A stretch of DNA of 64,000 nucleotides, taken from Actinobacteria bacterium IMCC26256. GTDB taxonomy: Bacteria > Actinomycetota > Acidimicrobiia > IMCC26256. The translations under genes were made by a program, and so were the position numbers. The notes below the pieces were generated by a model. It saw only the letters and a program-made list of their open reading frames with translations. It did not search any database and had not been told where the DNA came from. The stretch is taken from NCBI GenBank assembly GCA_001023575.1, contig CP011489.1:1921001-1985000 (forward strand), in the 5' to 3' direction. Shown one piece after another: positions 1,296 to 19,033 of this stretch. The stretch's first letter is position 1. Each line of letters starts with the position of its first letter.

Positions 1296-1332
1296 CCTGT
1301 CACCAAGGAACGCTTTGTGGCACTCATCTGTC
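1296..1332 (+). promoter_or_regulatory. Island-type promoter P1 (leaderless) for the HerA-like gene
   Basis: CCTGTCACCA starts at 1296. TGTCAC acts as -35 and CACTCA at 1321-1326 as -10, with a 17-base spacer. The ATG at 1333 begins at the expected +1, so the mRNA should be leaderless. The same layout recurs at nine other places in the island. Confidence 0.75.
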
Positions 1333-3510
1333 ATGACTACGACATTGCAGCCAGGAGCCAGTATCGAGAAGAACGACGGGAGCGAAAATGTTGAGACGCA
1401 GCCGCCTCAGGACTTGAAGGTTGCGCTCGAAATCGGCGCGCTCCGCAGGACTTCGCAAGAGAGCGCGCTTGAAGCCTCCCGGCTCGCTCTTTCCTCGATT
1501 CCCCATGTTCTGGGTTCTTCGTTCTCGGTTGAGTACTTGTGGTCTCCGGAATCAGGACTGTCCGTTGCGATCCAAGGGTCTGGGGTGTCGCTCGATGGCA
1601 TGTCTGCGGCGCTAGATCGAACCCACGAAATCAGGGCCGTGGTAACCGCCGAGCCTGCGAGAGGAATCGATTGCGAGTTGTCCACGATCGAACGGAATGG
1701 ATTCGTCTTGGATGCCAACGCCAGCCACCACCCCACCTACTTGCCTCAGTCGAAGTCCGTTGCAACCGCGGCGCGACATATCTCATCGGTGCTCCAACTG
1801 CAGCGAGACCCGGTGTTCGTGCGGTTCGTCGCAACGGCAGTCGAGCTGACGCCCGACGAAGAGGAAGCCGTGGTATCGAGCTACCCGGATGCGGAAGCGA
1901 CAGACTTCGCTCGCCTTATGCGACGTGCAGAGGGAGCGCGGAGCAGAACGGACCAACTTTTTCGCCTCTTGCCGACCTTCGAAGTCAGTATCGTGGTCGG
2001 GGCTCCGCGCGGGCACTCTGGCGTGATCGCTGCTGCGGTGGCCGCTGCTCTCAGTAACGCTGGCACCAAAGATGATGTGTGCCCATCGTTCGCAGTCCGT
2101 GCAATCCCAACGCCAGTCGAGCGTCATGGAGGTGGTTGGGGCAGCGGATTCGGGACCCTGCCGCATTCGACGAGCCGGCTGCATCGCCTGTACGGCAGCG
2201 GAGACTTGGATTGCATCATCCCCCTACCGTTCGCAACGGAAGCGACCTTCCCCGGCTTGGTGGTTAGGCGTAGCCGGCAGCGCGATCGAACCGTGCGCAC
2301 TTCTACCGGTGGGGGCCTGCTTCTTGGGACCGCGCGCAGTGGAGTGCTCACGACCGAGGTTCGGCTCCGCCTCGAAGACCTCAACAGGCATCTGGTCGTC
2401 ACCGGTCAGACCGGCACAGGGAAGAGCCGCATGCTCGAGTCGCTTGCGGTCCAGCAGGCTCAGGCGGGTGAGGGTTTCGCGTTCATCGATCCACATGGCG
2501 ACTCAGCGGACCGCATCATGGAGCGAATGCCGCGCTCGCGGATCGACGACGTCGTCGTATTCGATCCGTCAACTCCCTCCGGTCGCCTTGCAATCAACCC
2601 GCTCGAGGCGGATTCAGAGGCCGCTCAGGAGTTCATCGTCCAGGACTTGTCGGAGATGTTCTATGACCTTTTTGACCCGTCACGTCAGGGCGTCGTCGGG
2701 CCTCGCTTCGAGGCTTGGCTCCGGATGGGCGCCCTCACGCTGATCGATGCGAAGCAGCACGGTGGACCGGCCGGTTCGATCATCGATATTCCAAAGCTCT
2801 TCTCCGACGACGAGTTCCTCAAGGAGCGCTTCAAGCACGTACGCGCACCCCACATCCATGACTTCTGGATTCACGAGATGGGGCGAACCTCAGACTTCCA
2901 TCGCTCCGAGATGCTCGGGTGGTTCGCGTCGAAGTTCGACCGGTTCTCCAGCAACGGCATCATGCGCGAGATGCTCGGGACTGGTCGCAATGACCTCAAC
3001 CTGCATGCCGTGATGAACGAAGGCAAGATCCTGATCGTCAGGCTCCCGAAGGGGCTGATCGGCGGCGTTAACGCGTCGCTACTGGGATACTTCCTCACGA
3101 GCCGCATCTGGACTGCCGCCCTCGGGCGCGCATCTGCACCTGCGCACGAGCGGCGTCCGTTCACACTCTTCATCGACGAGTTCCAATCGTTTACATCCGC
3201 AACCTCTATCGGCGCGATGCTCTCCGAAGCTCGAAAGTTCGGACTGCGCCTAGTGCTTGCAAATCAGTTCCAATCCCAGCTGAATGAGAAGATTCGCGAC
3301 GCAGTTGAAGGGAACTGTGGAAACCGTCTCACGTTTCGCGTCGGCGTCAAGGATGCGGCCGCGATCGCACCGCTCTACGCCGGCGCGTTCGATGCGGAGG
3401 ACCTGACCCACTTGCCGAACCTTGAAGCGGCCGCCGTGCTCTTGCAAGGCGGCGAGACGCAAGCCCCGTTCACACTGAGCACAGTTACGAACGGCTTCAC
3501 TACCCCTTGA
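1333..3510 (+). CDS. HerA/TraG-VirB4 family ATPase
   Basis: A 725-residue hexameric-motor ATPase of the HerA/FtsK-TraG class, which move DNA or act with nucleases. Residues 358-365 read GQTGTGKS (Walker A), preceded by NRHLVVT. D615-E616 in LFIDEFQSF form Walker B, and downstream come SEARKFGLRLVLANQ and EGNCGNRLTFRVG, the blocks seen in coupling-protein-like ATPases of actinobacteria. The N-terminal 350 residues resemble nothing I can name. I chose the ATG at 1333 and not the in-frame one at 1276 because 1333 coincides with the predicted +1 of promoter P1. It is not followed by other conjugation genes, so a stand-alone defence or mobile-element role is as likely as DNA transfer. The end overlaps the convergent CHAT gene by 11 bases. 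Confidence 0.8.
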   Translation: MTTTLQPGASIEKNDGSENVETQPPQDLKVALEIGALRRTSQESALEASRLALSSIPHVLGSSFSVEYLWSPESGLSVAIQGSGVSLDGMSAALDRTHEIRAVVTAEPARGIDCELSTIERNGFVLDANASHHPTYLPQSKSVATAARHISSVLQLQRDPVFVRFVATAVELTPDEEEAVVSSYPDAEATDFARLMRRAEGARSRTDQLFRLLPTFEVSIVVGAPRGHSGVIAAAVAAALSNAGTKDDVCPSFAVRAIPTPVERHGGGWGSGFGTLPHSTSRLHRLYGSGDLDCIIPLPFATEATFPGLVVRRSRQRDRTVRTSTGGGLLLGTARSGVLTTEVRLRLEDLNRHLVVTGQTGTGKSRMLESLAVQQAQAGEGFAFIDPHGDSADRIMERMPRSRIDDVVVFDPSTPSGRLAINPLEADSEAAQEFIVQDLSEMFYDLFDPSRQGVVGPRFEAWLRMGALTLIDAKQHGGPAGSIIDIPKLFSDDEFLKERFKHVRAPHIHDFWIHEMGRTSDFHRSEMLGWFASKFDRFSSNGIMREMLGTGRNDLNLHAVMNEGKILIVRLPKGLIGGVNASLLGYFLTSRIWTAALGRASAPAHERRPFTLFIDEFQSFTSATSIGAMLSEARKFGLRLVLANQFQSQLNEKIRDAVEGNCGNRLTFRVGVKDAAAIAPLYAGAFDAEDLTHLPNLEAAAVLLQGGETQAPFTLSTVTNGFTTP

Positions 3511-4806: not shown

Positions 4807-4842
4807 CCTGTCACTAGATTGCGCAGTTGGCGCTAAGACAAC
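4807..4842 (+). promoter_or_regulatory. Island-type promoter P2 (leaderless) for the zinc-finger operon
   Basis: CCTGTCAC at 4807-4814 and CGCTAA at 4831-4836. The spacer is 16, one base shorter than the others, yet the distance from the -10 element to the ATG at 4843 stays the same. That covariation supports a transcription start on the A of the ATG. Confidence 0.75.
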
Positions 4843-6165
4843 ATGACACAAACTATCAACGATCAGTCTGCGCCGGTCAGCCAGCGCTCAGTCAAAGCCA
4901 AGCTACATTCAAATACGCTAACGTCAACCTTTAACTGGGCAGATGGGGGTGCAGGGGTGAGGATTACGGATAAAACTGAGATCGCCGCGCTTCTTGCGGA
5001 TCTCGCGTTCGGCGAGTCGGGACTGTACCGGCACTTCGCCAGTAAGCAACTGGGGGGCGGGAAGCGCCAAAAAGCGGAGCTAAAGACTGCACTTGATGGT
5101 GCTTGTGCTCGGGTGCTCGCTCAAGTGTGGGCGTTCCCGACGACACGCACCGAAGTTGAAGCGGCGCTCGCCTACGAGCTAGGCCAGAAGTCGGCCCCGG
5201 TGTACTTGGCGACTATCGAAGAAGTTAACGGTGTAATTACCTCCTACTTCGAAAGAGTCATAAAAAGTGGAGAAAGCGGAAGAAAGGCTGCTGGTGAGGC
5301 GACCATTAGGATGATTGGCAAATTACCCTCACTCGAACTGTTGTTAAAAAGCAAACTTGATTCGCGTGAACCCGGGCTCGCAAGCTGGCACGTCACCGCT
5401 ATGTGTCGACTTGATTTTAAACACGCCATACGGGGAAACCAGCAGGAAGCCGATGGACTAACAGGCAAATCCACTCGGTGCAATACGTGCCTCGGAACAG
5501 GCCACAGCGACGATAACTGCCCGGATTGCCGGCCGGGCTCGCAGCTTGGCTGTGACAGTTGCAATTGGAGTGGAAGGATGAAGTGCGAACCATGCAATGG
5601 CAAAGGCAGGAATGCCATACGTTTAGTCAGCGGCAATGGCCCTGACGATAACGAGGATGACGAAGCGCGAAGTTTCCTAGACAAGCTTGCGGGCCCGGAT
5701 GACACGGCAACTTATGCAACGAATGCGATTGAAGGAAGAGAGCGGATTGAGCTTATGAGGCCCGTCTATGCGAACGCCTACAACGCCTTTAACGAGATGC
5801 GGCAAAATAACCCTAACCGTGAGGACATACAGATAAAGGTGAAGGTCCTGATCGCAGTACTCGCGCGTGAAGCACTTGCGTGTGAAGGACCCGAGCTTGA
5901 AGCGGATGCAATGTTCGATCGCAGGAATAATGCAGCAGGAGACAACGTAAGGGGTGCTGGCGGACTTTCGGTGGAACTCACGGAGATTGTCTACGATGAA
6001 ATCGCCATTCAGTTTCCACACTTCGACCCCACGACACCGGCCGGGAGAAGGAAGGCTACGAACTACTGCAATACGTACGCCCAGTACACGGGTCGGGCGA
6101 ACCCTCAGGGCACCACGCCGGAGAATCCCGAGCCCGAAGAAGCAGGGGTCACAAATGACGTCTAG
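4843..6165 (+). CDS. DnaJ-type cysteine-rich zinc-finger protein
   Basis: A 440-residue protein with a central DnaJ-like zinc-binding region, four CxxC pairs at C213/216, C226/229, C237/240 and C248/251 carrying the CxxCxGxG spacing (CNTCLGTG, CEPCNGKG). No J domain is present. Flanking regions are mostly helical and not recognisable. Such zinc modules bind unfolded protein or nucleic acid. The start at 4843 is fixed by promoter P2; there is no ribosome-binding site. The codon usage and lower G+C in the middle (5,230-5,450) differ a little from the neighbouring genes. Its stop overlaps the start of the next gene, so the two form an operon. A second, tiny zinc finger of the same kind is encoded at the end of the E1-like gene (9459-9614) under the same promoter type. 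Function unknown. Confidence 0.8.
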   Translation: MTQTINDQSAPVSQRSVKAKLHSNTLTSTFNWADGGAGVRITDKTEIAALLADLAFGESGLYRHFASKQLGGGKRQKAELKTALDGACARVLAQVWAFPTTRTEVEAALAYELGQKSAPVYLATIEEVNGVITSYFERVIKSGESGRKAAGEATIRMIGKLPSLELLLKSKLDSREPGLASWHVTAMCRLDFKHAIRGNQQEADGLTGKSTRCNTCLGTGHSDDNCPDCRPGSQLGCDSCNWSGRMKCEPCNGKGRNAIRLVSGNGPDDNEDDEARSFLDKLAGPDDTATYATNAIEGRERIELMRPVYANAYNAFNEMRQNNPNREDIQIKVKVLIAVLAREALACEGPELEADAMFDRRNNAAGDNVRGAGGLSVELTEIVYDEIAIQFPHFDPTTPAGRRKATNYCNTYAQYTGRANPQGTTPENPEPEEAGVTNDV

Positions 6166-7777: not shown

Positions 7778-9307
7778 TCAAGCGTGGCGCGCCTTCGACG
7801 AACACTGCTTGCAGAGCCTCGTGCGCAACGCTGTCGGAGCCTCGCATTTCGAACAAGCACCAATCGTGTTGTCTGCAATGGCATCGGCGAGGAGGTCACC
7901 AATTCGAGCGTCGGCTGTTCGAACGACTTCGATGAGCGCTGGGACGTCATATCCCCCGATTGAGCCAGCGGTGTGTGCCGCAACGATCAGCGCTCTCCCC
8001 GCTCCGCTGATGGTCTCGAGTTGGTCGATCGTGTGGTCTTGGCGGTCCAAGGCAAGTTCTGCTGTCAGGTCGAATCGCTCCCCCGCGTACTCACGCGCCA
8101 CAAGGATCAGGTGCGAAGGCCTGGGGAGGGGTGTCGTCGCGAGAAAGTGCGCGGTCCTAGCGTCGACTGGCCATGGCGACGAGCCCCAGAGGCTCTTGAG
8201 GATATCGAAACGACGCTGAGTAGCAGCCGGGTCAGCAGGTCGAGCCCATGGATGTCCATCCAAGATGTCCGTAGCGGCGGAGCGCCAAGCCCCAAGCGCC
8301 CTACTGAGCATGCGAGGTTCATCACACTTGAGGTCATCGAAGGTTGGCGTGACACTGAGCGCGTCGGATCGCAGGTCCGACGCGAGCGTCCCCGAGGCGA
8401 CCTTGACGGCATGCTCGATGAGCTTGCCGGATGGCTCGCATCCTCTCACCCCAGCGAGTGCGTAAACTGCGCCGTGGGAGCCCGGCCCGCGACCCGCGCG
8501 GCCTGCAATCTGCGCGGCCTCCCACGAGTGGAGCCTGCGATTCTCGGAACCGTCGAACTTGGTCGTTTCGGCGAAGATGATGCTGTCTGATGGGAGGTTC
8601 AATCCATGCCCGATGACGTCGGTCGATACCACGACGTCGATGTCGCCGCGATGGAAGGCCTCGATCTGTGCCAACTTCACTTCAGGTGGCAACTGCCCAT
8701 AGAGCGCACCGACGCGCAGACCACGGCCCTGGAGCACCCGGGCAAGCCCGAGCACAGAACGCCGCGAGAAGCAGACGACGACCGAGCGTGGCCCGACCTG
8801 ATCGAGTTCCACTCGACCGTTGAATTCGAGGGTTCCCAGCCGCGCGTGGTGGGTGACCTCGACGTCCGGGAAGAGCGTACGCAACAGCGGCAACGTCTCC
8901 GTTGCTGCGATGAGCGACATTGATTCGTAGTCACCACGAGTGAAGATGCGGCTCCATGCCGGACCTCGGTCGCGATCCAGAGCCCAGTGAGCCTCGTCGA
9001 CCACAATGAAGTCAGAGCGAAGCGGTGCCATCTCGGCCGTGCAACAGATAATGTCGGCATCACCATTGATGACGCGCTCGCCTGTCAGAAGCCCGACACG
9101 ATCGGGTCCGAGCCGACGTGCGAGTTTTGCATACACCTCCTGGGCCAAGAGGCGTAGCGGGCTCGCGTAAACGCCGCGACCGCGCTGTGCGAGCTCCTCG
9201 AGGCTGGCGGCGGTCTTTCCTGAGTTGGTCGGCCCGACGCTTGCAGTGACCTTGCGGGGCGGCGTGGATAGTTGCGGGATGGTGACGTTGACTGTGTGAT
9301 GTGCCAT
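7778..9307 (-). CDS. Suv3-like superfamily 2 RNA helicase
   Basis: A 509-residue DExH helicase most like Suv3, the RNA helicase of the mitochondrial degradosome. Visible motifs are GPTNSGKT at 25-32 (motif I, with the Suv3-typical PTNSGKT), GVYASPLRLLAQE (Ia), TGER, CTAEM, DEAH at 104-107 (II), IVCFS-like VVVCFSRR, YGQLPPEVKLAQ, STDVIGHGLNL and QIAGRAGRG at 266-274 (VI). The C-terminus ends in a zinc-ribbon-like pair, CSKC and CKQC, not found in Suv3. Eukaryotic Suv3 unwinds 3'-tailed RNA for an exonuclease; here a NYN RNase gene lies in the same island. The ATG at 9307 coincides with the +1 of promoter P3, so the mRNA should be leaderless. It stands apart from the E1 operon, separated by strong hairpins. 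Confidence 0.85.
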   Translation of the reverse strand: MAHHTVNVTIPQLSTPPRKVTASVGPTNSGKTAASLEELAQRGRGVYASPLRLLAQEVYAKLARRLGPDRVGLLTGERVINGDADIICCTAEMAPLRSDFIVVDEAHWALDRDRGPAWSRIFTRGDYESMSLIAATETLPLLRTLFPDVEVTHHARLGTLEFNGRVELDQVGPRSVVVCFSRRSVLGLARVLQGRGLRVGALYGQLPPEVKLAQIEAFHRGDIDVVVSTDVIGHGLNLPSDSIIFAETTKFDGSENRRLHSWEAAQIAGRAGRGPGSHGAVYALAGVRGCEPSGKLIEHAVKVASGTLASDLRSDALSVTPTFDDLKCDEPRMLSRALGAWRSAATDILDGHPWARPADPAATQRRFDILKSLWGSSPWPVDARTAHFLATTPLPRPSHLILVAREYAGERFDLTAELALDRQDHTIDQLETISGAGRALIVAAHTAGSIGGYDVPALIEVVRTADARIGDLLADAIADNTIGACSKCEAPTALRTRLCKQCSSKARHA

Positions 9308-9344
9308 GCCTTCAGAGCGGTGATATCAGGGTTGTAGTGACAGG
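9308..9344 (-). promoter_or_regulatory. Island-type promoter P3 (leaderless) for the helicase
   Basis: Read on the minus strand, CCTGTCAC runs 9344 to 9337, and CGCTCT runs 9319 to 9314 after a 17-base spacer. The ATG at 9307 lies exactly 37 bases from the first C, as at the other leaderless starts. Confidence 0.75.
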
Positions 9345-9458: not shown

Positions 9459-9614
9459 TCAGTCGACCTCGCCAGCTCCCTTGCACCGCTTGCACGTTTC
9501 CCGGATCTTCGTCCACTTGCCAGTGGACTGTTCCTTCACCTCGCGGTAAAGCCCTCCAGAGCCGTTGCAGGCCGGGCAGAGTTTCTTCCCCATGTCATCA
9601 CCCCCCTTTGTCAT
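9459..9614 (-). CDS. Internal in-frame ORF: free DnaJ-like zinc-finger peptide
   Basis: The last 51 codons of the E1-like gene can be read separately from ATG 9614, or more likely 44 codons from ATG 9593, which has a purine-rich AAAGGGGGG ribosome-binding site eight bases upstream. The product is one CPACNGSG...CKRCKGAG module. An island-type promoter (P4) sits just upstream inside the E1 coding sequence, with its -10 element at the conserved spacing. This supports independent production of the finger, in addition to the fused form. Stand-alone fingers of this kind are known in actinobacteria; the role is unknown. Confidence 0.55.
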   Translation of the reverse strand: MTKGGDDMGKKLCPACNGSGGLYREVKEQSTGKWTKIRETCKRCKGAGEVD

Positions 9615-10589
9615 CGTCTCCCCTAAGAGCGTCCGGAAACTCCCTCCGGTGACAGGTATGTCCGTCGTCGCTCTCGTCGTACTGTCGTTTGTCGCTTCGC
9701 TGCGTTGGGCTACGAGTTGATGCCGCGAGAACGAAGGCAACGGAGCGACCGGGTGTTCGCCGCAGATGGGACACTGCGGGTTACGCGTTGAGGTGTGCCA
9801 TACGGCTTGAGGGGCGAACTGGCCCGCCGCACCAGCGAATAGCGCCCCGAACCAACCCCACTCCGGTGACGTCGCAACGATGCAGAGGTTGTGGCGAGCG
9901 AGCGCGGTCAGCGTGGTGGTTCCTGCTGGCGTGTTCGCTCCGGAGAGGAGCCCGATCGCGTGCTTCGCTGCGACGCTCACGACGGTAAGAATGTCTGCCC
10001 CGAGCGCTGTCTCGGCGGCGATCCGCCCCGTTCCGTAATCCTTCGTCCGCGCCGCATCGGTCGTCGTTGTGTTCCCGACTGCACACTGGAAACAGGGAGT
10101 CACGGGTGGAACCGTCGCAACGATCTCTCCAGCTTCGGCACCTCGGTAGAGTGATGCGAATACTGCGGGCACTCCGAGCGCATAGCAACGATGGTTAATG
10201 GCTGCCTGGGCTATCGGGTCGTCGGTAGCTGCGATAACCAAATCTGCGCGAACGATGACATCCGTGATCGTGTCCTCGTCAAGCTGGAGCAAGGGAGCGG
10301 CGATCTGGCAGACGTTTGCAGACGGGTCAATCGCGCGAAGGTGTTCGGACAGAGCTTGGACCTTGGACTGACCGACGTCATGATTGCGAAAGACAGATCG
10401 CGAGAGGTTCGGTGCCTCGACGGTGTCGGGATCAACGAGTGTGAATGCACCGACCCCGTGCCGGACGAGAATGTCCGCGAGGTGCGAGCCGACGCTGCCG
10501 CATCCGATCACCACCACGTGGTGATTTCGCAGGGGTGCGATTAGCGCTTCGACGCGTGCGGTTCGGCTGTTGGCCGCAGAGTCGGTCAC
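9459..10589 (-). CDS. ThiF/MoeB/E1-like adenylating protein with C-terminal zinc finger
   Basis: A 376-residue member of the E1 superfamily, which adenylates the C-terminal glycine of ubiquitin-like or sulfur-carrier proteins. The nucleotide site is VIGCGSVGSHLADIL (GxGxxG at 29-34) with D53 in VDPDTVEAPNLSR. C166/C169 (PCFQC) and C273/C276 (PQCPIC) form the structural zinc site seen in MoeB and ThiF. I see no convincing thioester cysteine in the crossover region, so it may adenylate only. Residues 333-376 add a small CxxCxGxG zinc finger (C338/341, C366/369) separated by a loose linker. The GTG at 10589 overlaps the stop of the JAB gene (GTGA) with AGGAGG just upstream. Within the frame lie an island-type promoter and internal starts that would make the zinc finger alone. 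The genes upstream encode JAB and E2-like proteins, a set resembling Bil and type II CBASS modules. Confidence 0.85.
   Translation of the reverse strand: MTDSAANSRTARVEALIAPLRNHHVVVIGCGSVGSHLADILVRHGVGAFTLVDPDTVEAPNLSRSVFRNHDVGQSKVQALSEHLRAIDPSANVCQIAAPLLQLDEDTITDVIVRADLVIAATDDPIAQAAINHRCYALGVPAVFASLYRGAEAGEIVATVPPVTPCFQCAVGNTTTTDAARTKDYGTGRIAAETALGADILTVVSVAAKHAIGLLSGANTPAGTTTLTALARHNLCIVATSPEWGWFGALFAGAAGQFAPQAVWHTSTRNPQCPICGEHPVAPLPSFSRHQLVAQRSEATNDSTTRATTDIPVTGGSFRTLLGETMTKGGDDMGKKLCPACNGSGGLYREVKEQSTGKWTKIRETCKRCKGAGEVD
9615..9656 (-). promoter_or_regulatory. Island-type promoter P4 inside the E1 gene
   Basis: Minus-strand CCTGTCAC at 9656-9649 and CGCTCT at 9631-9626 with a 17-base spacer. 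The predicted start near 9619 is followed by ATG at 9614 and a strong ribosome-binding site for ATG 9593. Confidence 0.6.
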
Positions 10590-11473
10590 TGGTCAACCTC
10601 CTGAAGCGGCGTCTTCGTAACGGTGGTCCGGAGTTGCTCCAGCGAGGCGATGAGTGCGGCGATCGCCGTGTCGGAATCAGGGTGAGCAAGCGCGGCGAGC
10701 TTTGTAGGGGTCATTCCGTCGCCATCGTCCACGGCGATGAGGGGTGCGGCGATCGGGAAGTCCGATGAGAGGAGCACCCAGACGGTGGTGTCTAGGTCAT
10801 GCGCAATGAACTGGAGGCCCACGACGCTGTGGCCGGCGACGACGAGGTCTTGGGCGGTCTGGGATCTCCAGCCTGTCGCCGCGACGACGGCTTGAGCGAC
10901 GCTCTCAACGGGGAGGACACGAACGGCGGTGGGCTTGCTGATGATCAACCGATCGGAGGAGTCGAGTCGCGCGAAGAACCATGTGATGCGCCCGTTCGTG
11001 AGACTGGTCTCGTGCGACTCGACGTTGTCTTCGTCCCGGGTTTGAGTGACGATTGGCATCGTGACGGTCCCGAGGTGGCGGTTCTGTTGCAGGAGGTGGC
11101 GTGTGACGTCTAGGTCCGGTCCGCTGAGCCGGTTCATGCCCGCGGGGTGGCTGTGGACCACCCCGGTCAACGTCATGTCGAGGAGTGTCTCCGTGTCCTC
11201 GACCTCCCGGACCAGATGCTCGGAGGGTACGTACGAAACGCCAGACGTCTCGGCCTCGCAGTCCCAAAGGAATCGGGTGATGAGGGTGGAACTGACCGGG
11301 CGAAGGAGCGCTCCACCCTGTTCCGGGTTGGGTGCAGCGAGGTGCTTGTCGATGCCGTTGAGGACCGTGTCGGTAACAGCGACGACTCGCGGCGATATCA
11401 GTGCGTGAACAGGGGCGATCGATCGGCTTCGTAGCGTGCTGAAGTTGGGTTGCGTTCGCGATCTCATAATCAT
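10586..11473 (-). CDS. JAMM/JAB-domain isopeptidase-like protein
   Basis: A 295-residue protein with a Mov34/JAB metalloprotease domain, the fold that removes or matures ubiquitin-like proteins. The metal site is complete: E51 in EQGGALL, H107 and H109 in VVHSHP, S117 and D120 in SGPD, which fits HxH-x7-S-x2-D exactly. The C-terminal 150 residues are not recognised (SDFPIAAPLIAVDDGDG near 240). The frame is open from 11527, but the ATG at 11473 overlaps the stop of the E2-like gene as ATGA, so I use that start. It is followed with a four-base overlap by the E1-like gene. In CBASS Cap3 and Bil systems a JAB enzyme reverses or primes E1/E2 conjugation; the same role is inferred here. Confidence 0.85.
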   Translation of the reverse strand: MIMRSRTQPNFSTLRSRSIAPVHALISPRVVAVTDTVLNGIDKHLAAPNPEQGGALLRPVSSTLITRFLWDCEAETSGVSYVPSEHLVREVEDTETLLDMTLTGVVHSHPAGMNRLSGPDLDVTRHLLQQNRHLGTVTMPIVTQTRDEDNVESHETSLTNGRITWFFARLDSSDRLIISKPTAVRVLPVESVAQAVVAATGWRSQTAQDLVVAGHSVVGLQFIAHDLDTTVWVLLSSDFPIAAPLIAVDDGDGMTPTKLAALAHPDSDTAIAALIASLEQLRTTVTKTPLQEVDQ

Positions 11474-12201
11474 GCCGAGAACGGTGCGGGCAGACCGCGG
11501 AGGATGAACTCCATGTAGACGCACCACTTTGCAAGCGCGCCGTGGACCGCGGCGAGGGATTCGTGTCCCCGAAATCCCGGGCGCAAGCAGACTACGGTCT
11601 GCCCGTCGAGTGCCTGCAGGTGATGTCGGTGCCCGACGAACTCGTCAAGGTTTGGTGCGATCACGTAGGCGAACCACTCGTTGCGGCGGGCAGGGTCCTG
11701 ACGGACAAAGAATCGATACTCGGTGGCAAGGAAGACATCGGGGAACAGAGCGAAGGTCCAACCTCTGACGTCATCGAACCAGATCCAATCGCAGTCATTT
11801 TGGGGATCTAGGGCATGGATCGCTGCAGTGTCGTTGCTCGGAGCCGCTGCGAACCTTTCGCGAGGGACGACGGAGGCGACGTGCTCATGCTGACCCGCGT
11901 CAGTGGGGCGGATCTTGCCGTCCGGCTGCACAACTGGCACTGGCACATTGCGGCCGGACTCGGCTTCGCGGATCTGTCGAATCATGGCGGCAAGACCATC
12001 GGGATCGTTAGTCGCGGCGAACCGCTCTCGCGGGATCCTCGAGGTCGGGCTTTCCTCAACTGCTTCTTCCGCCTTCGCTCGTTCGGTGTTTGCTGTGAAG
12101 GCGAGTGGGTCGTCTTGGGGAACCCACACAGAACTTCCGTCGGGGCATGTGACCTCAACGAGTTCGATGATCGGTTCGTCGGGGTTCGAGGTCGGTTTCA
12201 T
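11470..12201 (-). CDS. E2-like (UBC-fold) protein, putative
   Basis: A 243-residue protein encoded directly before JAB and E1. Its C-terminal part has the layout of bacterial E2 proteins: a beta-sheet region (YRFFVRQDPARRNEWFAYVI), a His-rich turn (GHRHHLQ), then C205 in GQTVVCLRPG as candidate catalytic cysteine, followed by W226 and a final helix. The N-terminal 110 residues are low in structure and contain a repeated PRERFAA motif near residues 54 and 113. Assignment rests on this pattern and on the neighbours, so it is moderate. The ATG at 12201 has AAGGAG seven bases upstream and overlaps the stop of an 11-residue leader ORF (ATGA), so translation is probably coupled to it. The gene ends overlapping the JAB start. 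Confidence 0.6.
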   Translation of the reverse strand: MKPTSNPDEPIIELVEVTCPDGSSVWVPQDDPLAFTANTERAKAEEAVEESPTSRIPRERFAATNDPDGLAAMIRQIREAESGRNVPVPVVQPDGKIRPTDAGQHEHVASVVPRERFAAAPSNDTAAIHALDPQNDCDWIWFDDVRGWTFALFPDVFLATEYRFFVRQDPARRNEWFAYVIAPNLDEFVGHRHHLQALDGQTVVCLRPGFRGHESLAAVHGALAKWCVYMEFILRGLPAPFSA

Positions 12202-12233
12202 GGCTTCTCCTTAGACGTACGCGTGGCTGTCAT
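12198..12233 (-). CDS. Leaderless 11-residue leader ORF coupled to the E2-like gene
   Basis: ATG at 12233 lies exactly at the +1 predicted for promoter P10 and encodes MTATRTSKEKP. Its TGA overlaps the ATG of the E2-like gene, and its codons contain that gene's AAGGAG ribosome-binding site. Translation of the leader would therefore deliver ribosomes to the E2-like start. The peptide itself may have no function. Confidence 0.6.
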   Translation of the reverse strand: MTATRTSKEKP

Positions 12234-12270
12234 GGTTGGTGAGGAGTGAGTGGCGCGATGTGGTGACACT
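12234..12270 (-). promoter_or_regulatory. Island-type promoter P10 (leaderless) before the E2-JAB-E1 genes
   Basis: Minus-strand AGTGTCAC at 12270-12263 and TCCTCA at 12245-12240 with a 17-base spacer. The ATG at 12233 lies at +1. The motif starts on the base right after the stop codon of the upstream gene. Confidence 0.65.
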
Positions 12271-12862: not shown

Positions 12863-13378
12863 TCATGAGAGGACCATTACGAGGACGATGCAGAGCGCGA
12901 CCACAAACAGTGCGACGAGCGCCAGAGTCGATGCAGTGACAATCAGTGTGGGAATCGAAAGTGCGCAAGCCGTCACGTCGAGAGCTGTCAGGGTTACGAG
13001 TTCGCGATGGTTCGCGGTGCGGAAGCCCCTCGTCATTATCGCGAGCACGACCAGGCCGAGAGCAACCCCACCGAGAGCCCAAGGCGCCCAAAGATCTGCG
13101 CCGCCGATGCTCACAAGCCTGTGAACGGATCTCCCAATGCCGGTTTCGCCAGCAGTGGCGCGTGCAAGCTGGTAGTGGATCGGCGCGCAGATGATGGCAA
13201 TTGCGAGTGAGATCCAGCTGTTGCGGGTGAGCGGCCCGAGCGAGCTCAGGCGCACACTCGACTTTGGTGTTGACTTCGCAAGCACATCGCGCAACGTGAG
13301 TGGTGAAGGCACGGATCCTCCGCTCGCGACGTTGCGTGGCAGACCGAGGTGGGTTCGAACGCGGTCGGCGTAATCCAT
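12863..13378 (-). CDS. Four-helix membrane protein, unknown
   Basis: A 171-residue integral membrane protein. After a soluble N-terminus of about 65 residues there are hydrophobic segments near 73-90 (SWISLAIAIICAPIHY), 108-128 (APWALGGVALGLVVLAIM), 138-150 and 150-171 (ALVALFVVALCIVLVMV), the last ending at the C-terminus. No family is recognised. ATG 13378 has a good AAGGAG site. It begins 24 bases after the ATP-grasp stop, yet has its own island-type promoter P5 lying inside the end of that gene, with a 38-base untranslated leader. A longer frame from 13406 through the same DNA is a shadow. A membrane anchor or effector of the cluster is a reasonable guess. Confidence 0.65.
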   Translation of the reverse strand: MDYADRVRTHLGLPRNVASGGSVPSPLTLRDVLAKSTPKSSVRLSSLGPLTRNSWISLAIAIICAPIHYQLARATAGETGIGRSVHRLVSIGGADLWAPWALGGVALGLVVLAIMTRGFRTANHRELVTLTALDVTACALSIPTLIVTASTLALVALFVVALCIVLVMVLS

Positions 13379-13402: not shown

Positions 13403-14455
13403 TCATCTAGGGGTTCCCTCAGAGAGCACCGACGCGTTGACCTTGGTGACAGGTCGGCTCGTCTCGGTTCCGTCGGTGAGCCAACGGGCGATCGCGGCCG
13501 CGATGGGCAGGCCGGTGAAGTCCTCGATCCACAGCCATTGACCATTAGGGTTGACCTCGAGGAATACCGTCTCGCCTTCAGGCGTGACGACGAGGTCGAA
13601 CGCGCCAAACTCGAGTCCGAGTGCCCGGGCGAGCCGGCGGCAGCGAGTCGCCGTGGGATCGTCGAGGGTGACAGGACGATGCGCAATCGATTCGGGGTCG
13701 GCGCGACGCCAATCGTCTAACCCGTCCATGGAAGTCTGCGAGTCCATCGCGCAAGCGAGCAGATTGTCGCCGACGAGCGTGACCCGCAGTTCGTAAGCCT
13801 TCGGAACCGGCCGCTGGTAGAGGACGGGACTCAGGCTGATCTGGGAGTCGTCCAGGTCACGAGTCTCAACGATGCCCGCGAACACGTTGTAGGGATCGTT
13901 GCTCGGCAGACGCGGCGGTCCTGAGGAGACGAGCTTCGCGATGGCGCGTCCGCCGATAGCCCGCATGAAGTCGTAGACAAGGGCCGGGTCCTGACTCACA
14001 AGCGTTTCGGGCACTGTGAACCCGGCCGCGACCGCAGCACGAAGCTGCGCCGGCCGGAACGACGCGGCACGCACGGCGTCGGGGTGGCTCAGCCACGCAG
14101 AGTCGATACTGCGGAGGGTTCCTTGAAGCCCTGCGGTGGTCTCATCGATGGCGAAGTCCCGTGGGTTGCCGTCGAGTTGCGGGGCAACGGCGGCTCGAGT
14201 CGGACGCCGGTTCCAGACGGCGGTGATCTCCGAGGACTCGGCAGTGATCCCACTCCCAGTGAACGTGGCCCGTGCGCTGCCGTTCCGGTCGAGGTGAAAC
14301 GATGCTCCTGACGTCGGCCAGGCAACGTCCGTGTCGTAGCGAAGATAAGGGGTGCCAAGCAGATTGAGTTCGCGCTCTACCGGCGTGGCGTGTACGTCCT
14401 CAGTGTTCGTCAGTAGTACCGCGAGCGGCGGGCGCTTCGCGGAAGTCGCACTCAC
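13403..14455 (-). CDS. ATP-grasp peptide ligase of the graspetide (MvdD/SAV_5884-like) type
   Basis: A 350-residue ATP-grasp protein resembling the maturases that form ester or amide crosslinks in graspetide RiPPs. The N-terminal pre-ATP-grasp part has TAVWNRRPTRA; the middle has FRPAQLRAAVAAGFTVPETL and GRAIAKLVSS (nucleotide-binding lysine region); residues 300-312 read EVNPNGQWLWIED, the metal-binding block very typical of this subgroup, followed by GLPIAAAIA. These enzymes usually sit next to a short precursor-peptide gene; the 67-residue ORF at 15944-16147 is the only candidate nearby. ATG 14455 overlaps the end of the NYN gene (ATGA), so both are co-translated. Pairing such a ligase with E1, E2 and JAB proteins is not something I know from described systems. 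Confidence 0.8.
   Translation of the reverse strand: MSATSAKRPPLAVLLTNTEDVHATPVERELNLLGTPYLRYDTDVAWPTSGASFHLDRNGSARATFTGSGITAESSEITAVWNRRPTRAAVAPQLDGNPRDFAIDETTAGLQGTLRSIDSAWLSHPDAVRAASFRPAQLRAAVAAGFTVPETLVSQDPALVYDFMRAIGGRAIAKLVSSGPPRLPSNDPYNVFAGIVETRDLDDSQISLSPVLYQRPVPKAYELRVTLVGDNLLACAMDSQTSMDGLDDWRRADPESIAHRPVTLDDPTATRCRRLARALGLEFGAFDLVVTPEGETVFLEVNPNGQWLWIEDFTGLPIAAAIARWLTDGTETSRPVTKVNASVLSEGTPR
13423..13453 (-). promoter_or_regulatory. Island-type promoter P5 inside the ATP-grasp gene
   Basis: Minus-strand CCTGTCAC at 13453-13446 and TGCTCT at 13428-13423, spacer 17. Predicted +1 is near 13416; the membrane-protein gene starts at 13378 with its own ribosome-binding site, so this one would not be leaderless. 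Confidence 0.55.
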
Positions 14456-15723
14456 GCCGCCTCCGCATCGGCGACTTCTGACATGGCGGCGAGGGGCGTC
14501 CCAGTTTCCCTTTGGTCGATTCGCTCCACTGGCGGTTTCTCATCGCCCGCGAGCCAAGTACTGAGAATCTGTATCTCCTCGTCGTTGAGTATCCAGCCAA
14601 CTGCCGCGGCGCGTTGACTGTGGAGAGCCACCAGCGCGTGGATGTAGCCGTCTACGTTGTGACCCTCCTTCGCCTCGGTGTCGACACCTGCCTTCGCGAG
14701 TGAGCAATAAACCAATCCGATCACACGCCTTCCGATTATCACTCCACGCTCACCGAGGCGGTCTCGCACTAACCGAGATGCATCGCCCGGCGAATAGGTG
14801 CCGAGGTCCGCGCTGACAGAAGCGATCTCTGCCAACAACGGTGGCCAGCATTCGGTCGCGATCTCCGGCAGGTCAGCGATTTCGCAGAGGGCTGTGATCT
14901 CCGCAGGGAATCGGCTTCTCCACTCACTAACCCTTGCCAAGCCTGCAGCCGAGGAGCTCACTGGTAGGTCTTGGGTAACCGGCTCCTCTCGACTTGCAGA
15001 GTCCCCAGGTCCGACCTCGGCAGACACGCGGGTAGAGGCATCGGGTGCTGACTCGAGGTGGCCCTTGTCGCCGCCCTTGGCGGTGGGCGATCCAGTTATG
15101 AGCTGGAGCATCATGCCGTTGTCGATAACGGAATCGGCTGTGTTCCGGTAGGCCGCCGATGCCCGACTGGTAGAGAGGATGAGCGTGCACTGATCCGATG
15201 CGCGTAGCCGGTACATGAGTGGAGTGAAGTCCGCGTCGGAGGATGCGATGATGATTTCATCGAGGTTTGTACTCGCCATAACGTCAATGACATCAAGCAC
15301 GATGCGGATGTCAGCCGCATTCTTCTGCGCGGAGGTGAGCGCTGGGCAGTCAACGACCTCGAAGCCTGCATTGGTGAAGGCAGTACGAAAACGCTGGAAC
15401 AAGATCCGCCCGCCTTCGTCACTGGCGCGAGCTATGGAGCCGTTGGGGTTTAGGTAAATCTTGCGGATCAGGAAGTCGCGGTTTTTTCCGTTGTGGAAAA
15501 CCGCCAGTCGTTCTAGCCACTCCTGTGGTGAGCCAGCGAAGCGCAGCGCTGCAGCGGAGTCGACTGACCAGAGGCCCCCGAAAACATTATCGAAATCAAG
15601 AAAAATGGCTGAGCGCACTCGCGTGCGTGGCAACTCGTTCTCGTTGGGCATGGCGGTGAAGATGCTGTGGTTGACCGCATCGCTTAAGCGCTGCGGCTGA
15701 TGGGTGGTTTTTTTGTTTGTCAT
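14452..15723 (-). CDS. NYN-domain (PIN-like) RNase with C-terminal OST-HTH-like region
   Basis: A 423-residue protein whose N-terminal 170 residues are a NYN/LabA-type nuclease of the PIN fold. Acidic metal ligands are visible in FLDFDN (D43, D45), ADIRIVLDV (D138, D144) and SSDADFTPL (D163, D165). A linker of about 80 residues follows. The C-terminal 150 residues include DASRLVRDRLGERGVIIG and VGWILNDEEIQIL, which resembles an OST-HTH/LOTUS RNA-binding domain, though that call is weak. The frame is open from 15765, but the ATG at 15723 is exactly the +1 of promoter P6, so I take it as the true leaderless start. It overlaps the ATP-grasp start. It is a likely effector: RNA cleavage, perhaps with the Suv3-like helicase. 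Confidence 0.8.
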   Translation of the reverse strand: MTNKKTTHQPQRLSDAVNHSIFTAMPNENELPRTRVRSAIFLDFDNVFGGLWSVDSAAALRFAGSPQEWLERLAVFHNGKNRDFLIRKIYLNPNGSIARASDEGGRILFQRFRTAFTNAGFEVVDCPALTSAQKNAADIRIVLDVIDVMASTNLDEIIIASSDADFTPLMYRLRASDQCTLILSTSRASAAYRNTADSVIDNGMMLQLITGSPTAKGGDKGHLESAPDASTRVSAEVGPGDSASREEPVTQDLPVSSSAAGLARVSEWRSRFPAEITALCEIADLPEIATECWPPLLAEIASVSADLGTYSPGDASRLVRDRLGERGVIIGRRVIGLVYCSLAKAGVDTEAKEGHNVDGYIHALVALHSQRAAAVGWILNDEEIQILSTWLAGDEKPPVERIDQRETGTPLAAMSEVADAEAA

Positions 15724-15760
15724 ACTTAGAGAGTTCCTTTCATCGCGTTCTAGTGACAGG
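15724..15760 (-). promoter_or_regulatory. Island-type promoter P6 (leaderless) for the NYN/ATP-grasp genes
   Basis: Minus-strand CCTGTCACTA from 15760 and AACTCT at 15735-15730 with a 17-base spacer; the ATG at 15723 is 37 bases from the first C. This decides the NYN start against the longer frame. Confidence 0.75.
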
Positions 15761-15803
15761 TCCAAGCGAATACCGGTGTCATGCCCCTCTCGTAGTGAGT
15801 TCG

Positions 15804-15859
15804 TTGCCCGAGCAACCCTGGGGCAGGCGGATTAACGCCTGCCCCGTCGGGCTCGGGTA
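15804..15859 (-). terminator. Nested hairpin between the 67-residue gene and the NYN promoter
   Basis: GGGGCAGGCG (15820-15829) pairs perfectly with CGCCTGCCCC (15836-15845) over a six-base loop. Outside it TTGCCCGAG (15804-15812) pairs with CTCGGGTAA (15851-15859) with one wobble. It lies 85 bases after the stop of the 67-residue ORF and is probably its terminator, or a structured RNA element. Confidence 0.5.
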
Positions 15860-15943
15860 ACTGGGGTCGATCTAATAGCCCCTCATTGCACCTCCTCGGT
15901 CGGTTGTTTCGCACCTAGGTACCGCATGGACCGCGTAGGACAG

Positions 15944-16147
15944 TCAGTCCCCATCGCCGTCATCAGGCCCTCGGTCGAATCCCTGCCCATTTGTGCCCCT
16001 GATGTGCAGTGAGCTCGTCGTGACTCGTGACCCGCATGCTGAGGCCTCGATGTACTCACGCCGTGCCCACAGGAGCGGGACCGGGTTGTTGGTCGGCACT
16101 CCGGCCGGGGCCGGAGTCTGGATCTGGGTGGTGTGTAGGTATCTCAT
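15944..16147 (-). CDS. 67-residue peptide, candidate graspetide-like precursor
   Basis: A small ORF that a length filter would ignore; its ATG at 16147 coincides with the +1 of promoter P7, which is the main support that it is real. The N-terminal half (MRYLHTTQIQTPAPAG, then NPVPLLWARREYIEA) looks like a leader; the C-terminal half is rich in Thr, Ser, Gly and Asp and ends in GPDDGDGD. Alternating hydroxyl and acidic side chains are what graspetide ligases join, and an ATP-grasp ligase gene lies next but one downstream on the same strand. Alternatively it could be a tag processed by the JAB enzyme to expose a terminal glycine. Both are inference. There is no similarity to ubiquitin-like folds. 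Confidence 0.5.
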   Translation of the reverse strand: MRYLHTTQIQTPAPAGVPTNNPVPLLWARREYIEASACGSRVTTSSLHIRGTNGQGFDRGPDDGDGD

Positions 16148-16184
16148 ATCCGAATAGACACCGGAGCGACGTTCTGGTGACAGG
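16148..16184 (-). promoter_or_regulatory. Island-type promoter P7 (leaderless) for the 67-residue peptide
   Basis: Minus-strand CCTGTCACCA from 16184 and GTCTAT at 16159-16154, 17-base spacer, ATG at 16147 on +1. It is back to back with P8, 47 bases away. Confidence 0.7.
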
Positions 16185-16231
16185 TCGCCCCGATCTGCAC
16201 AGCGCGCGCTTTCTGCGACCAAGACCTCGGC

Positions 16232-16268
16232 GCTGTCACCAAGAACCGGCGTCGGGCACTATCAGCCC
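16232..16268 (+). promoter_or_regulatory. Island-type promoter P8 (leaderless) for the leader ORF and 99-residue gene
   Basis: GCTGTCACCA from 16232 and CACTAT at 16257-16262, 17-base spacer, ATG at 16269 on +1. Confidence 0.7.
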
Positions 16269-16334
16269 ATGCGCCGAGAATCCTCTACTTCCATCAGCTC
16301 GTCGTTCGTGTCGTTGGTCGAGCCGCGGAGATGA
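16269..16334 (+). CDS. Leaderless 21-residue leader ORF
   Basis: The ATG sits at the +1 of P8. The peptide begins MRRESSTSISSS and ends in VEPRR. Its TGA (16332-16334) overlaps the ATG of the next gene at 16331, giving the same ATGA coupling seen at the E2-like gene. The frame just before the overlap has GCCGCGGAG, which can serve as ribosome-binding site for the second ORF. Confidence 0.6.
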   Translation: MRRESSTSISSSFVSLVEPRR

Positions 16335-16630
16335 ACGGCACAACAGTCTCGTTGGGCGACGCCCTAGAGCGCGCAGCGAGATCGAGCGGAAGAACCCATT
16401 GGACCGAAGAACAGATTGCCCAGGTAAGCGGCCAAGCACACGAGTTAGGACTCGATGCGGTAGGTCTGTTGCGACTCCTCGACGCAGCCCGGATCGGCAC
16501 CTTCGCGGGCAACGCCCGAACTGTGCGCGTCTCTTACGGGCTAAACCACAGGACACTCGATCGCGTCCTGCGGCATCTCGGGTGCACGGTCGCCGAGCGG
16601 CGAGCCGCACTCGGTCTCCCACCACTATGA
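16331..16630 (+). CDS. Small unknown protein, possibly DNA-binding
   Basis: A 99-residue, mostly helical, basic protein. Helices around residues 8-18 (LGDALERAARSSG), 24-48 (TEEQIAQVSGQAHELGLDAVGLLRLLD) and 73-95 (NHRTLDRVLRHLGCTVAERRAALG) suggest a helix-turn-helix or coiled structure, but I cannot name a family. It is translated by coupling to the leader ORF. Sharing a divergent promoter region with the 67-residue peptide gene would suit a regulator of the island; that is inference only. Confidence 0.6.
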   Translation: MNGTTVSLGDALERAARSSGRTHWTEEQIAQVSGQAHELGLDAVGLLRLLDAARIGTFAGNARTVRVSYGLNHRTLDRVLRHLGCTVAERRAALGLPPL

Positions 16631-16678
16631 CTGCTTACCCGCTCATCTGCTCGTCCGAGGGCGCCACACAGGTGCCAA

Positions 16679-16715
16679 CGTGTCACCAGGGAGGCATTTC
16701 TAGTACTCAAGCAGC
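16679..16715 (+). promoter_or_regulatory. Island-type promoter P9 (leaderless)
   Basis: CGTGTCACCA from 16679 and TACTCA at 16704-16709, 17-base spacer, ATG at 16716 on +1. Confidence 0.7.
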
Positions 16716-17486
16716 ATGACCAATGACGAAACCAACAATGACGAAACTCCCAACAACCCCGACAAAGCCCTTGCCGCGCGCGGGCACGATGATGAGATTA
16801 GAGAGGCCATCCTGTCGAAGAGCGTGTTCGAGTTCATCTTCACGGAGTCCGATCTCAAGCAAGCGGTGACGGGCCAACTCCCGCGCGAAATCGCTGACGC
16901 CGCGTCTGTTTCCTTCGCATGCTTCGACGACGATCGGGAGTACGACTGGTTCGAAGATGACGTACGCGTCGACATCTTTGGCGGCGGCGGCCGTTACACC
17001 TTCATGGCTGAAGACGTCCGCGAAGCGCTAACGGAACTTCTGCTCCCTGCTCTCCGTGACCGTTACGTGCCGGCTGACATCTGGCCCGGGCGGAGCGGAG
17101 TGGACGGCGGATGCGCTCGCTGTTACGGGGCGGACTTCTCGAATCATGTGCACGTGCAATATGTGATCCGGCGTCAGATGGCTGGGACGAAGTCTCAGCG
17201 CGCCGAGGCGTGGGAGGCGCTGAAGTACGCCGAACTTCTCGACGAAACGGGACTAATTGACCGCAACGTGCTGGGCCTCGAAATGATCCGCGACGGCGCC
17301 TCGTCTAGGTCCGTCGCATTTCATCTCATCGGGCGGCTCGCTGAGCAGAGCGTCACAGCATTGGAGAATTGGTCGGTCAGTGACCGTGAGAGAGTCGGAA
17401 CGATGCTTGCGGACCTGGCGATGTCAACGCCGGAACTCTTCTTCCGGACGAGCATGGAAGCGTTCCAGCGCGCTCTTCCTTCCTGA
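16716..17486 (+). CDS. Hypothetical acidic protein, last intact island gene
   Basis: A 256-residue acidic protein with a low-complexity start rich in Asn, Asp and Thr. Residues 65-90 are strongly acidic (FDDDREYDWFEDDVRVDIFG). One CARC pair lies near residue 130, and the rest is helical (EAWEALKYAELLDETG). No family is recognised. The start at 16716 is set by promoter P9. It ends three bases before a recombinase fragment that marks the island edge. Confidence 0.7.
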   Translation: MTNDETNNDETPNNPDKALAARGHDDEIREAILSKSVFEFIFTESDLKQAVTGQLPREIADAASVSFACFDDDREYDWFEDDVRVDIFGGGGRYTFMAEDVREALTELLLPALRDRYVPADIWPGRSGVDGGCARCYGADFSNHVHVQYVIRRQMAGTKSQRAEAWEALKYAELLDETGLIDRNVLGLEMIRDGASSRSVAFHLIGRLAEQSVTALENWSVSDRERVGTMLADLAMSTPELFFRTSMEAFQRALPS

Positions 17487-17488
17487 TC

Positions 17489-17608
17489 GTGGGCGGCTTC
17501 GGTTTGTCGCACGCCGAGCTCCAGCACAGCTTGGGCCACAAGTCGCTCACAACCACGCTCGAGACTTACATCCAACCGACGCGCAGCGCGTCCGGGTGGG
17601 TCAAGTAG
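17489..17608 (+). pseudogene. Tail fragment of a tyrosine recombinase (integrase)
   Basis: Forty codons from 17489 to a TAG at 17606-17608 read LQHSLGHKSLTTTLETYIQP, the last conserved block of phage-type integrases: the histidine of LGH and the nucleophilic tyrosine in ETY. The Arg-containing parts are missing, so this is a remnant, probably left by insertion or rearrangement of the island beside a former integrase gene. There is no upstream continuation in any frame. Confidence 0.7.
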
Positions 17609-17782
17609 CGAGCCCGGGGACACATTCAGAGGGCGCGTTCGGCTTAGTCGCGATGCGATGTCTCCGAGTGGCTGCGCACTTATGTCTGCGACTCCGCGCC
17701 GGTCCCCTGGTGGCAGAACGTGACGGTTCGACCACTAGGAGCACACGGCGCGGTAGCAGTGCTAGATGGGCCTCGGCGAGCC

Positions 17783-17809: not shown

Positions 17810-19033
17810 CTAGGAGATGTGGATCCCTGAGATGGCGCGTGCGACTACCAAGCGCTGGATCTCTGAGGTGCCCTCGAAGATGGTGTAGATCTTCGAGTCT
17901 CTGTGCCACTGCTCTACTGGGTGGTCCTTCACGTAACCAGCGCCACCAAGAATCTGAATGGCTTCGTCAGTTACCTTGACAGCGACTTCACCGGCAACAA
18001 GCTTGGACATCGAACCCTCGCCAGATGTGAACTGCTTGCCGTTGTGCCCCATCCAGCAGGCGCGCCATACGAGCAAGCGAGCGGCATCGATACTGATCTT
18101 CATGTCAGCAAGCTTGAACGCAATCGACTGGTTCTCGATGATTGCACGCCCAAAGGCCTTGCGATCTTTCGCATAGTCGAGCGCATACTCGTAAGCCGCT
18201 CGCGCGATTCCAAGTGCTTGAGCACCGACCAACGGACGGCTCGCCTCAAAGGTGCTCATTGCTGCCTGCACCTTGCTGCTCTTCCCCTCACGCGCACGTG
18301 CAATGCGAGCGTCGAGTTTCTCCTTGCCACCTAGTAGGCAACGACCGGGGACGCGAACATCATCGAAGATGACCTCAGCAGTGTGGCTAGCGCGGATCCC
18401 CATCTTTGAGAACTTCTGCCCCATCGAGAGCCCCTTGGTGCCTGGGGGAACAACAAAGGATGCATGCCCACGGCTCTTGAGCTCTGGCTCTACCGAAGCA
18501 ACTACTACGTGGACGGTCGGAACCTTCTCGATTCCACCGTTAGTAATCCATGTCTTCGCTCCGTTGATAACCCACTCATCTGTTGCAGCGTCGTAGACAG
18601 CGCGTGTGCGAAGCGACGACACATCAGAACCAGCATCTGCCTCGCTCACTGCGAATGCTGCCATGTGAATCTTCTCTGGGGTACCGAAGCACTCGGGGAG
18701 CCATTCGCCGATCTGCTCGGGAGTACCGCTACCGATGATTCCCGAGACACCTAGCGTCGTGCCCATAATCGCAAGGCCAATACCTGCGTCACCCCATGCA
18801 AGCTCTTCGCTCATAAGCGCAAAGGTGAGCCCTGTTGGATCGGCGAATGCGTTGGAGACAAAATCAAGTGAGTAGAGGCCAACGTTTGCTGCCTCCTGGA
18901 TGACATCCCACGGCGTCTCCTCGAGCTCGTCATACTTCGCCGCTACAGGGCGAATGACATCAACAGAGAAGTCGTGAACCCACTTCTGAATAGTGAGTTG
19001 ATCCTCATTGAGATCGAGGGAGAAGTCAGCCAT
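17810..19033 (-). CDS. Acyl-CoA dehydrogenase
   Basis: A 407-residue FAD-dependent acyl-CoA dehydrogenase for the first step of a beta-oxidation-type pathway. Signature 1 is FAVSEADAGSDVSSLRTRA near 130, signature 2 includes QILGGAGYVKDHPVEQWHRD, and the catalytic glutamate is in YTIFEGTSEIQR, as in short- and medium-chain enzymes. The ATG has a strong TTAGGAGG site. An operator-like palindrome lies 76 bases upstream (19109-19124). This is the first backbone gene after the island. Substrate cannot be told from sequence alone. Confidence 0.9.
   Translation of the reverse strand: MADFSLDLNEDQLTIQKWVHDFSVDVIRPVAAKYDELEETPWDVIQEAANVGLYSLDFVSNAFADPTGLTFALMSEELAWGDAGIGLAIMGTTLGVSGIIGSGTPEQIGEWLPECFGTPEKIHMAAFAVSEADAGSDVSSLRTRAVYDAATDEWVINGAKTWITNGGIEKVPTVHVVVASVEPELKSRGHASFVVPPGTKGLSMGQKFSKMGIRASHTAEVIFDDVRVPGRCLLGGKEKLDARIARAREGKSSKVQAAMSTFEASRPLVGAQALGIARAAYEYALDYAKDRKAFGRAIIENQSIAFKLADMKISIDAARLLVWRACWMGHNGKQFTSGEGSMSKLVAGEVAVKVTDEAIQILGGAGYVKDHPVEQWHRDSKIYTIFEGTSEIQRLVVARAISGIHIS

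Follow-up and report, generated by a model that had tools for sequence, protein, structure and literature searches.

A probable leaderless small gene under the promoter family of an actinobacterial integrative element

Here, we describe a 67-codon open reading frame (ORF67) in a stretch of 64,000 nucleotides from Actinobacteria bacterium IMCC26256, which we call the window. In our reading, ORF67 is likely to be a stand-alone gene, carried by an integrative mobile element, that is translated into a small protein. ORF67 is probably real because its start codon coincides with the start point of the element's own type of promoter. At the level of sequence, the promoter position and the leaderless start are strongly supported; we infer translation, termination and a role of the product. 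This small gene is thus probably genuine, on grounds that the original prediction only glimpsed, and the biochemistry proposed there is unproven. Of greater interest than this proposed biochemistry is that the element has a leaderless promoter set of its own.

ORF67 occupies positions 15944-16147 on the minus strand, with an ATG at 16147, 67 codons and a stop, and it forms the ATG-initiated portion of a 92-codon open frame. Its translation (MRYLHTTQIQTPAPAGVPTNNPVPLLWARREYIEASACGSRVTTSSLHIRGTNGQGFDRGPDDGDGD, 67 aa with the C-terminal end GPDDGDGD) bears out the coordinates, the strand and the sequence originally given for it. The length of ORF67 by itself is at chance level, not significant, and carries no weight: an ATG-initiated ORF of at least 67 codons appears on the same strand in 40% of Markov shuffles of 15730-16330. 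Its codon usage resembles that of real genes, which is not decisive. The codon score is 0.126 bits/codon, compared with 0.167±0.10 in real 67-codon pieces and -0.156±0.17 in spurious ORFs, 7 of 84 of which reach the score of ORF67; a ten-codon stretch in its middle (SACGSRVTTS) scores poorly. Searches against NCBIfam, Pfam, PADLOC and PHROGs gave zero family matches, and tblastn against plasmids and phages returned no match. In 198 relatives the matches beyond its own genome (G000) were noise, the best of them (E 0.0037) having an internal stop inside. The single-sequence AlphaFold2 prediction is of low confidence (mean pLDDT 53.6) and lacks secondary structure.

A Shine-Dalgarno sequence is absent before the ORF67 start, and the upstream sequence GGTGTCTATTCGGAT directly abuts the ATG. 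This upstream region carries the motif TGTCAC-N19-CT[C/A]-N7-ATG, in which a -35-like box begins exactly 35 nt before the A of the ATG. The motif search began from a 17-base direct repeat, whose copies in the promoters of ORF67 and of the NYN gene downstream are 94% identical. The 17-mer common to both promoters, together with the motif scans, places the -35-like box of ORF67, CGACCTGTCAC, at 16177-16187 (minus). The CTA of the -10-like region lies at 16155-16157 (minus), that is at -10 to -8 from the ATG, and CT[C/A] holds this position in all seven exact sites of the window. The sequence GACCTGTCACYAGAACG occurs free of mismatches at two places only, before ORF67 and before NYN, at an equal distance from the ATG, and weaker copies precede other genes.

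The seven exact copies of the motif in the window all lie within one GC-rich integrative element. If one mismatch at most is allowed, the window holds 8 matches where 0.45 would be expected, a number that 100 shuffles never reached. An ATG stands at exactly +35 in 7 of the 14 TGTCAC boxes in the part of the element that lies in the window, and in none of the 10 boxes found in the window outside the element. The profile of ATG offsets has its sole peak at +35; among those listed, the other offsets from 6 to 119 occur at most once each. With a local ATG frequency of 1.24%, the enrichment at +35 has a P of about 1e-10, or of about 2e-7 once the two sites from which the search started are dropped. 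The latter is the fairer figure because the motif was partly defined on the same sites. The original prediction had placed the start of ORF67 on a predicted +1, and these counts uphold it: the ATG is the predicted +1 of a promoter family specific to the element. A generic sigma-70 consensus scan gave no match at ORF67, and neither did an Rfam search of 15600-16800. A search of 295 other genomes of the class did not find the strict pattern, in which ACC comes first, and its reader is therefore probably a factor specific to the element.

These data also bear on the view that ORF67 is spurious, with a promoter that yields a non-coding RNA or no transcript at all. A length expected by chance and the lack of a homologue speak for it. 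However, an ATG would fall at exactly +35 by chance with a frequency of about 1.2%, and the codon usage is gene-like, so that we regard this view as unlikely. Returning to ORF67 as a small gene, we propose that a factor reads GGACCTGTCACYA / CT[C/A] and guides RNA polymerase to the promoter. The first nucleotide of the ORF67 mRNA would be the A of its ATG, and the ribosome would therefore initiate directly on a leaderless 5' end.

In the whole element we count eleven leaderless promoters of this kind, eight in the window and three in L057, the stretch into which the element extends on the left. One of the eleven has a 34-nt spacing and one a GTG start, and in one of the three L057 promoters CTT replaces CT[C/A]. 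Seven of the start codons at +1 belong to genes with lengths of 256 to 725 codons, which include those for a TrwB-like ATPase, a SUV3-like helicase, NYN and an M50 protease. In the window, the promoter at 1298-1335 (plus) precedes a leaderless gene for a TrwB/TraD-like coupling ATPase (ATG 1333), that at 9305-9342 (minus) the leaderless SUV3-like helicase gene, and that at 16681-16718 (plus) a leaderless gene for a 256-aa protein. The site with the 34-nt spacing (4809-4845, plus) serves a 440-aa gene at 4843. At three further sites the start codon belongs to a mini-ORF (11, 21 and 33 codons), and the TGA of each overlaps the start of the gene that follows. The promoter at 12231-12268 (minus) belongs to the 11-aa mini-ORF (ATG 12233), which is coupled to a gene starting at 12201. 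The remaining start codon opens ORF67, the sole uncoupled small ORF of the set. Two boxes on the minus strand, at 13451 and 9654, have TGTCAC and CTC and no start codon at +35. The box at 13451 could drive the genes at 13378 and 12828, and the box at 9654 could drive a C-terminal piece of the E1 gene of about 50 aa with the pattern CxxCxGxG.

The GC-rich stretch that carries these promoters extends 10 kb leftward of the window, into L057. It is bounded by a 78-bp repeat (L057 10075-10152 and window 17817-17894, 91% identical) that corresponds to the 3' end of an acyl-CoA dehydrogenase gene. Since such repeats stand at both bounds and an integrase gene lies between them, we take the stretch to be an integrative element of about 28 kb, spanning L057 10075 to window 17894 (about 1911.1-1938.9 kb on C1 of G000). 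A tyrosine integrase is encoded at its left side. At its right, 214 bp of the integrase 3' end are repeated (L057 11627-11840, window 17489-17702). The genes of the element encode a TrwB/TraD-like coupling ATPase, a CHAT protein, a SUV3-like helicase, an AAA/TPR protein, a vWA protein, an M50 peptidase, E1 and JAB proteins, an NYN protein and an ATP-grasp enzyme.

Leaderless genes are described in mycobacteria, where an RTG at +1 is necessary and sufficient for initiation and where leaderless ORFs for small proteins are common, some of them unaffiliated with a nearby gene (PLoS Genet 2015, PMC4633059). As in these mycobacterial small ORFs, the start codon of the ORFs described here lies at the transcription start, as judged here from sequence only, and some are coupled through overlapping stop and start codons and some stand alone. 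Unlike their mycobacterial counterparts, the promoters are gathered in one mobile element and use a private -35-like box (as the strict pattern, absent from the 295 other genomes searched). If this private leaderless set is real, it would illustrate how an element can itself control its genes for transfer and conflict and have them translated without ribosome binding sites. The set would also mark true starts and small genes missed by annotation, namely ORF67 and the three coupled mini-ORFs, and it makes the idea of ORF67 as a precursor testable.

The original prediction had placed ORF67 next to an NYN/ATP-grasp pair on the same strand. The shared strand holds, but ORF67 is not directly adjacent to the pair, and a hairpin and a separate promoter lie in between. 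From the ORF67 stop it is 221 nt to the start of NYN and 1489 nt to that of the ATP-grasp gene. A strong GC hairpin follows ORF67 at 15807-15857 (minus), with a minimum free energy of -38.8 kcal/mol for 15805-15875 (z -5.1); it could be a terminator without a U-tail, and a scan for U-tract terminators downstream of ORF67 gave no match. Beyond it, the NYN gene has its own promoter of the family, with the -35-like box GGACCTGTCAC at 15753-15763 (minus) and the ATG at 15723 as the predicted +1. This leaderless gene (14452-15723, minus) encodes a nuclease-like protein of 423 aa with an NYN domain (PF01936, 9e-18, scored on a version bearing a two-residue N-terminal extension), and its stop overlaps the start of the ATP-grasp gene. 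As the hairpin is followed by NYN's own promoter, ORF67 is probably a separate transcription unit. Its transcript would probably end at the hairpin (15857-15807), with NYN restarting transcription from its own promoter copy; read-through into NYN is possible because the hairpin has no U-tract. In the same interval (15870-15930, minus), GAGGAGGT precedes ATGAGGGGCTATTAG, a very short ORF (MRGY) that has a good ribosome binding site and overlaps the stop of an ORF of 14 codons whose first residues, MRYL, are also those of ORF67.

A strong hairpin between two genes on one strand would fit a cis-acting upstream ORF, in which translation of ORF67 controls the hairpin, and hence read-through to NYN and ATP-grasp, with an inert peptide. 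The three other leaderless mini-ORFs of the element, each upstream of a gene and coupled to it, point the same way. However, ORF67 ends without a coupled start codon, a separate promoter of the family precedes NYN, and 67 codons are long for a leader. A purely cis-acting ORF67 is therefore improbable in our judgement. If ORF67 is instead a stand-alone gene, its product would most likely be an unstructured accessory or regulatory peptide of 67 aa. A graspetide precursor and a regulatory partner are possible roles within this stand-alone reading, whose competitors are the cis-acting ORF, a ubiquitin-like tag and the spurious ORF.

A regulatory role is suggested by the divergent arrangement. A promoter of the same family lies on the plus strand at 16234-16271, the -35 boxes of the two being about 50 bp apart. 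Its ATG at 16269 opens the 21-aa mini-ORF, the stop of which overlaps the start of a 99-aa ORF (16331-16630) that is HTH-like. Integrative elements commonly show a regulator facing a small gene, and ORF67 might act on the HTH-like product as an antirepressor, an excisionase-like or an antitoxin-like partner. The HTH assignment is weak, though (PF20432, E 0.02), and ORF67 has neither a family match nor a predicted fold. We think such a partnership quite unlikely.

The second possible role is that of a graspetide precursor, in which the ATP-grasp ligase (13403-14455, minus) would join Thr/Ser hydroxyls in the C-terminal half of ORF67 to the Asp side chains of GFDRGPDDGDGD. The enzyme is closest to graspetide maturases (TIGR04187, 242.6 bits, E 5.7e-72); this score lies below the curated cut-off of 350 bits, which makes it a relative and not a member of the family. 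It retains the residues that are invariant among its relatives (alignment A1). As a single query it found no relative in viral and genome contigs, and an alignment query fetched 80 loci, which we compared together with five annotated tgmA/tgmB loci. In the tree, the window enzyme falls among the GG-leader graspetide loci (such as L066, L070, L124 and L134; survey PMC8939145), with weak support at the inner nodes and no well-supported sister. The C-terminus of ORF67 has the appropriate layout: its last 26 residues hold five Thr/Ser, all ahead of five Asp, and the fetched precursors are similar. None of 238 other ORFs of the element matches these counts of Thr/Ser and Asp/Glu and their order; the donor-then-acceptor criterion was set after the ORF67 sequence had been seen and is not sufficient for precursor status.

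The locus thus resembles the TIGR04186/TIGR04187 pair (tgmA/tgmB) in having an ATP-grasp of the TIGR04187/MvdC/MvdD group and a small protein with a Thr/Ser-then-Asp end. The differences are substantial, however. The comparison with TIGR04186 that the original prediction had called for gave zero matches genome-wide at E<=1, and a regex scan of the element ORFs found no GG, RPWG, PFF or similar leader motif in ORF67, unlike at the GG-leader loci. In the annotated tgmA/tgmB loci the precursor lies directly before the enzyme, and many of the other relatives listed have a small candidate ORF just upstream, of which only part are classified. In the window this usual position is filled by the 423-aa NYN gene, and ORF67 lies 1.5 kb from the enzyme, beyond the hairpin and another gene and probably in a separate transcription unit. 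No other small ORF at the ATP-grasp locus of the window resembles a precursor. A clear NYN neighbour is absent from all 80 ATP-grasp loci, the pair was not found in any other genome searched, and the best relatives of NYN (L003, L037 and L039) have no ATP-grasp match within the stretch fetched. None of the papers searched mentions both graspetides and the NYN domain. Of the original precursor idea there remains the suggestive C-terminus, without the family match, the leader or the position next to the enzyme, and the core pattern was noticed prior to its test. We therefore consider the graspetide reading doubtful. Also unlikely is a combined scenario, in which the element has its own promoter code (GGACCTGTCACYA / CT[C/A]) with a factor that it encodes or brings along, a regulon of transfer and conflict genes with mRNAs that are almost only leaderless, and in ORF67 a stand-alone small product of this regulon that is modified by the unusual, NYN-associated ATP-grasp. 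The ATP-grasp genes nearest in the tree (L103 and L126) are preceded by an overlapping ORF of 64 or 76 aa (PFVVRVAAEWI / PFVLRVATEWI). A second small ORF lies further upstream in both, and the two might encode a partner protein and a precursor.

Finally, the E1 (9459-10589) and JAB (10586-11473) proteins might use ORF67 as a ubiquitin-like tag. Their genes are real and lie in the same element, and 67 aa is within the size range of ubiquitin-like tags. However, the low-confidence ORF67 prediction shows no secondary structure and hence no beta-grasp fold (single sequence, pLDDT 54), the ORF67 end is GDGD and not GG, and its distance from E1 exceeds 5 kb. The original prediction had suggested that removal of the last Asp would expose a glycine for E1 activation; ORF67 itself has no C-terminal Gly, and the trimming of exactly one Asp is ad hoc. 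A tag function is extremely improbable, and ORF67 as a tag or ligase substrate is not established. A 243-aa protein without a family match precedes E1 and JAB in the same run of genes (9459-12201). By eye only, its C-terminus (HRHHLQALDGQTVVCLRPG) appears E2-like; the predicted structure of the protein encoded at 11470-12201 was too poor for use. At L051, a distant locus in a genome of the same order, JAB and E1 domains are fused in one open frame.
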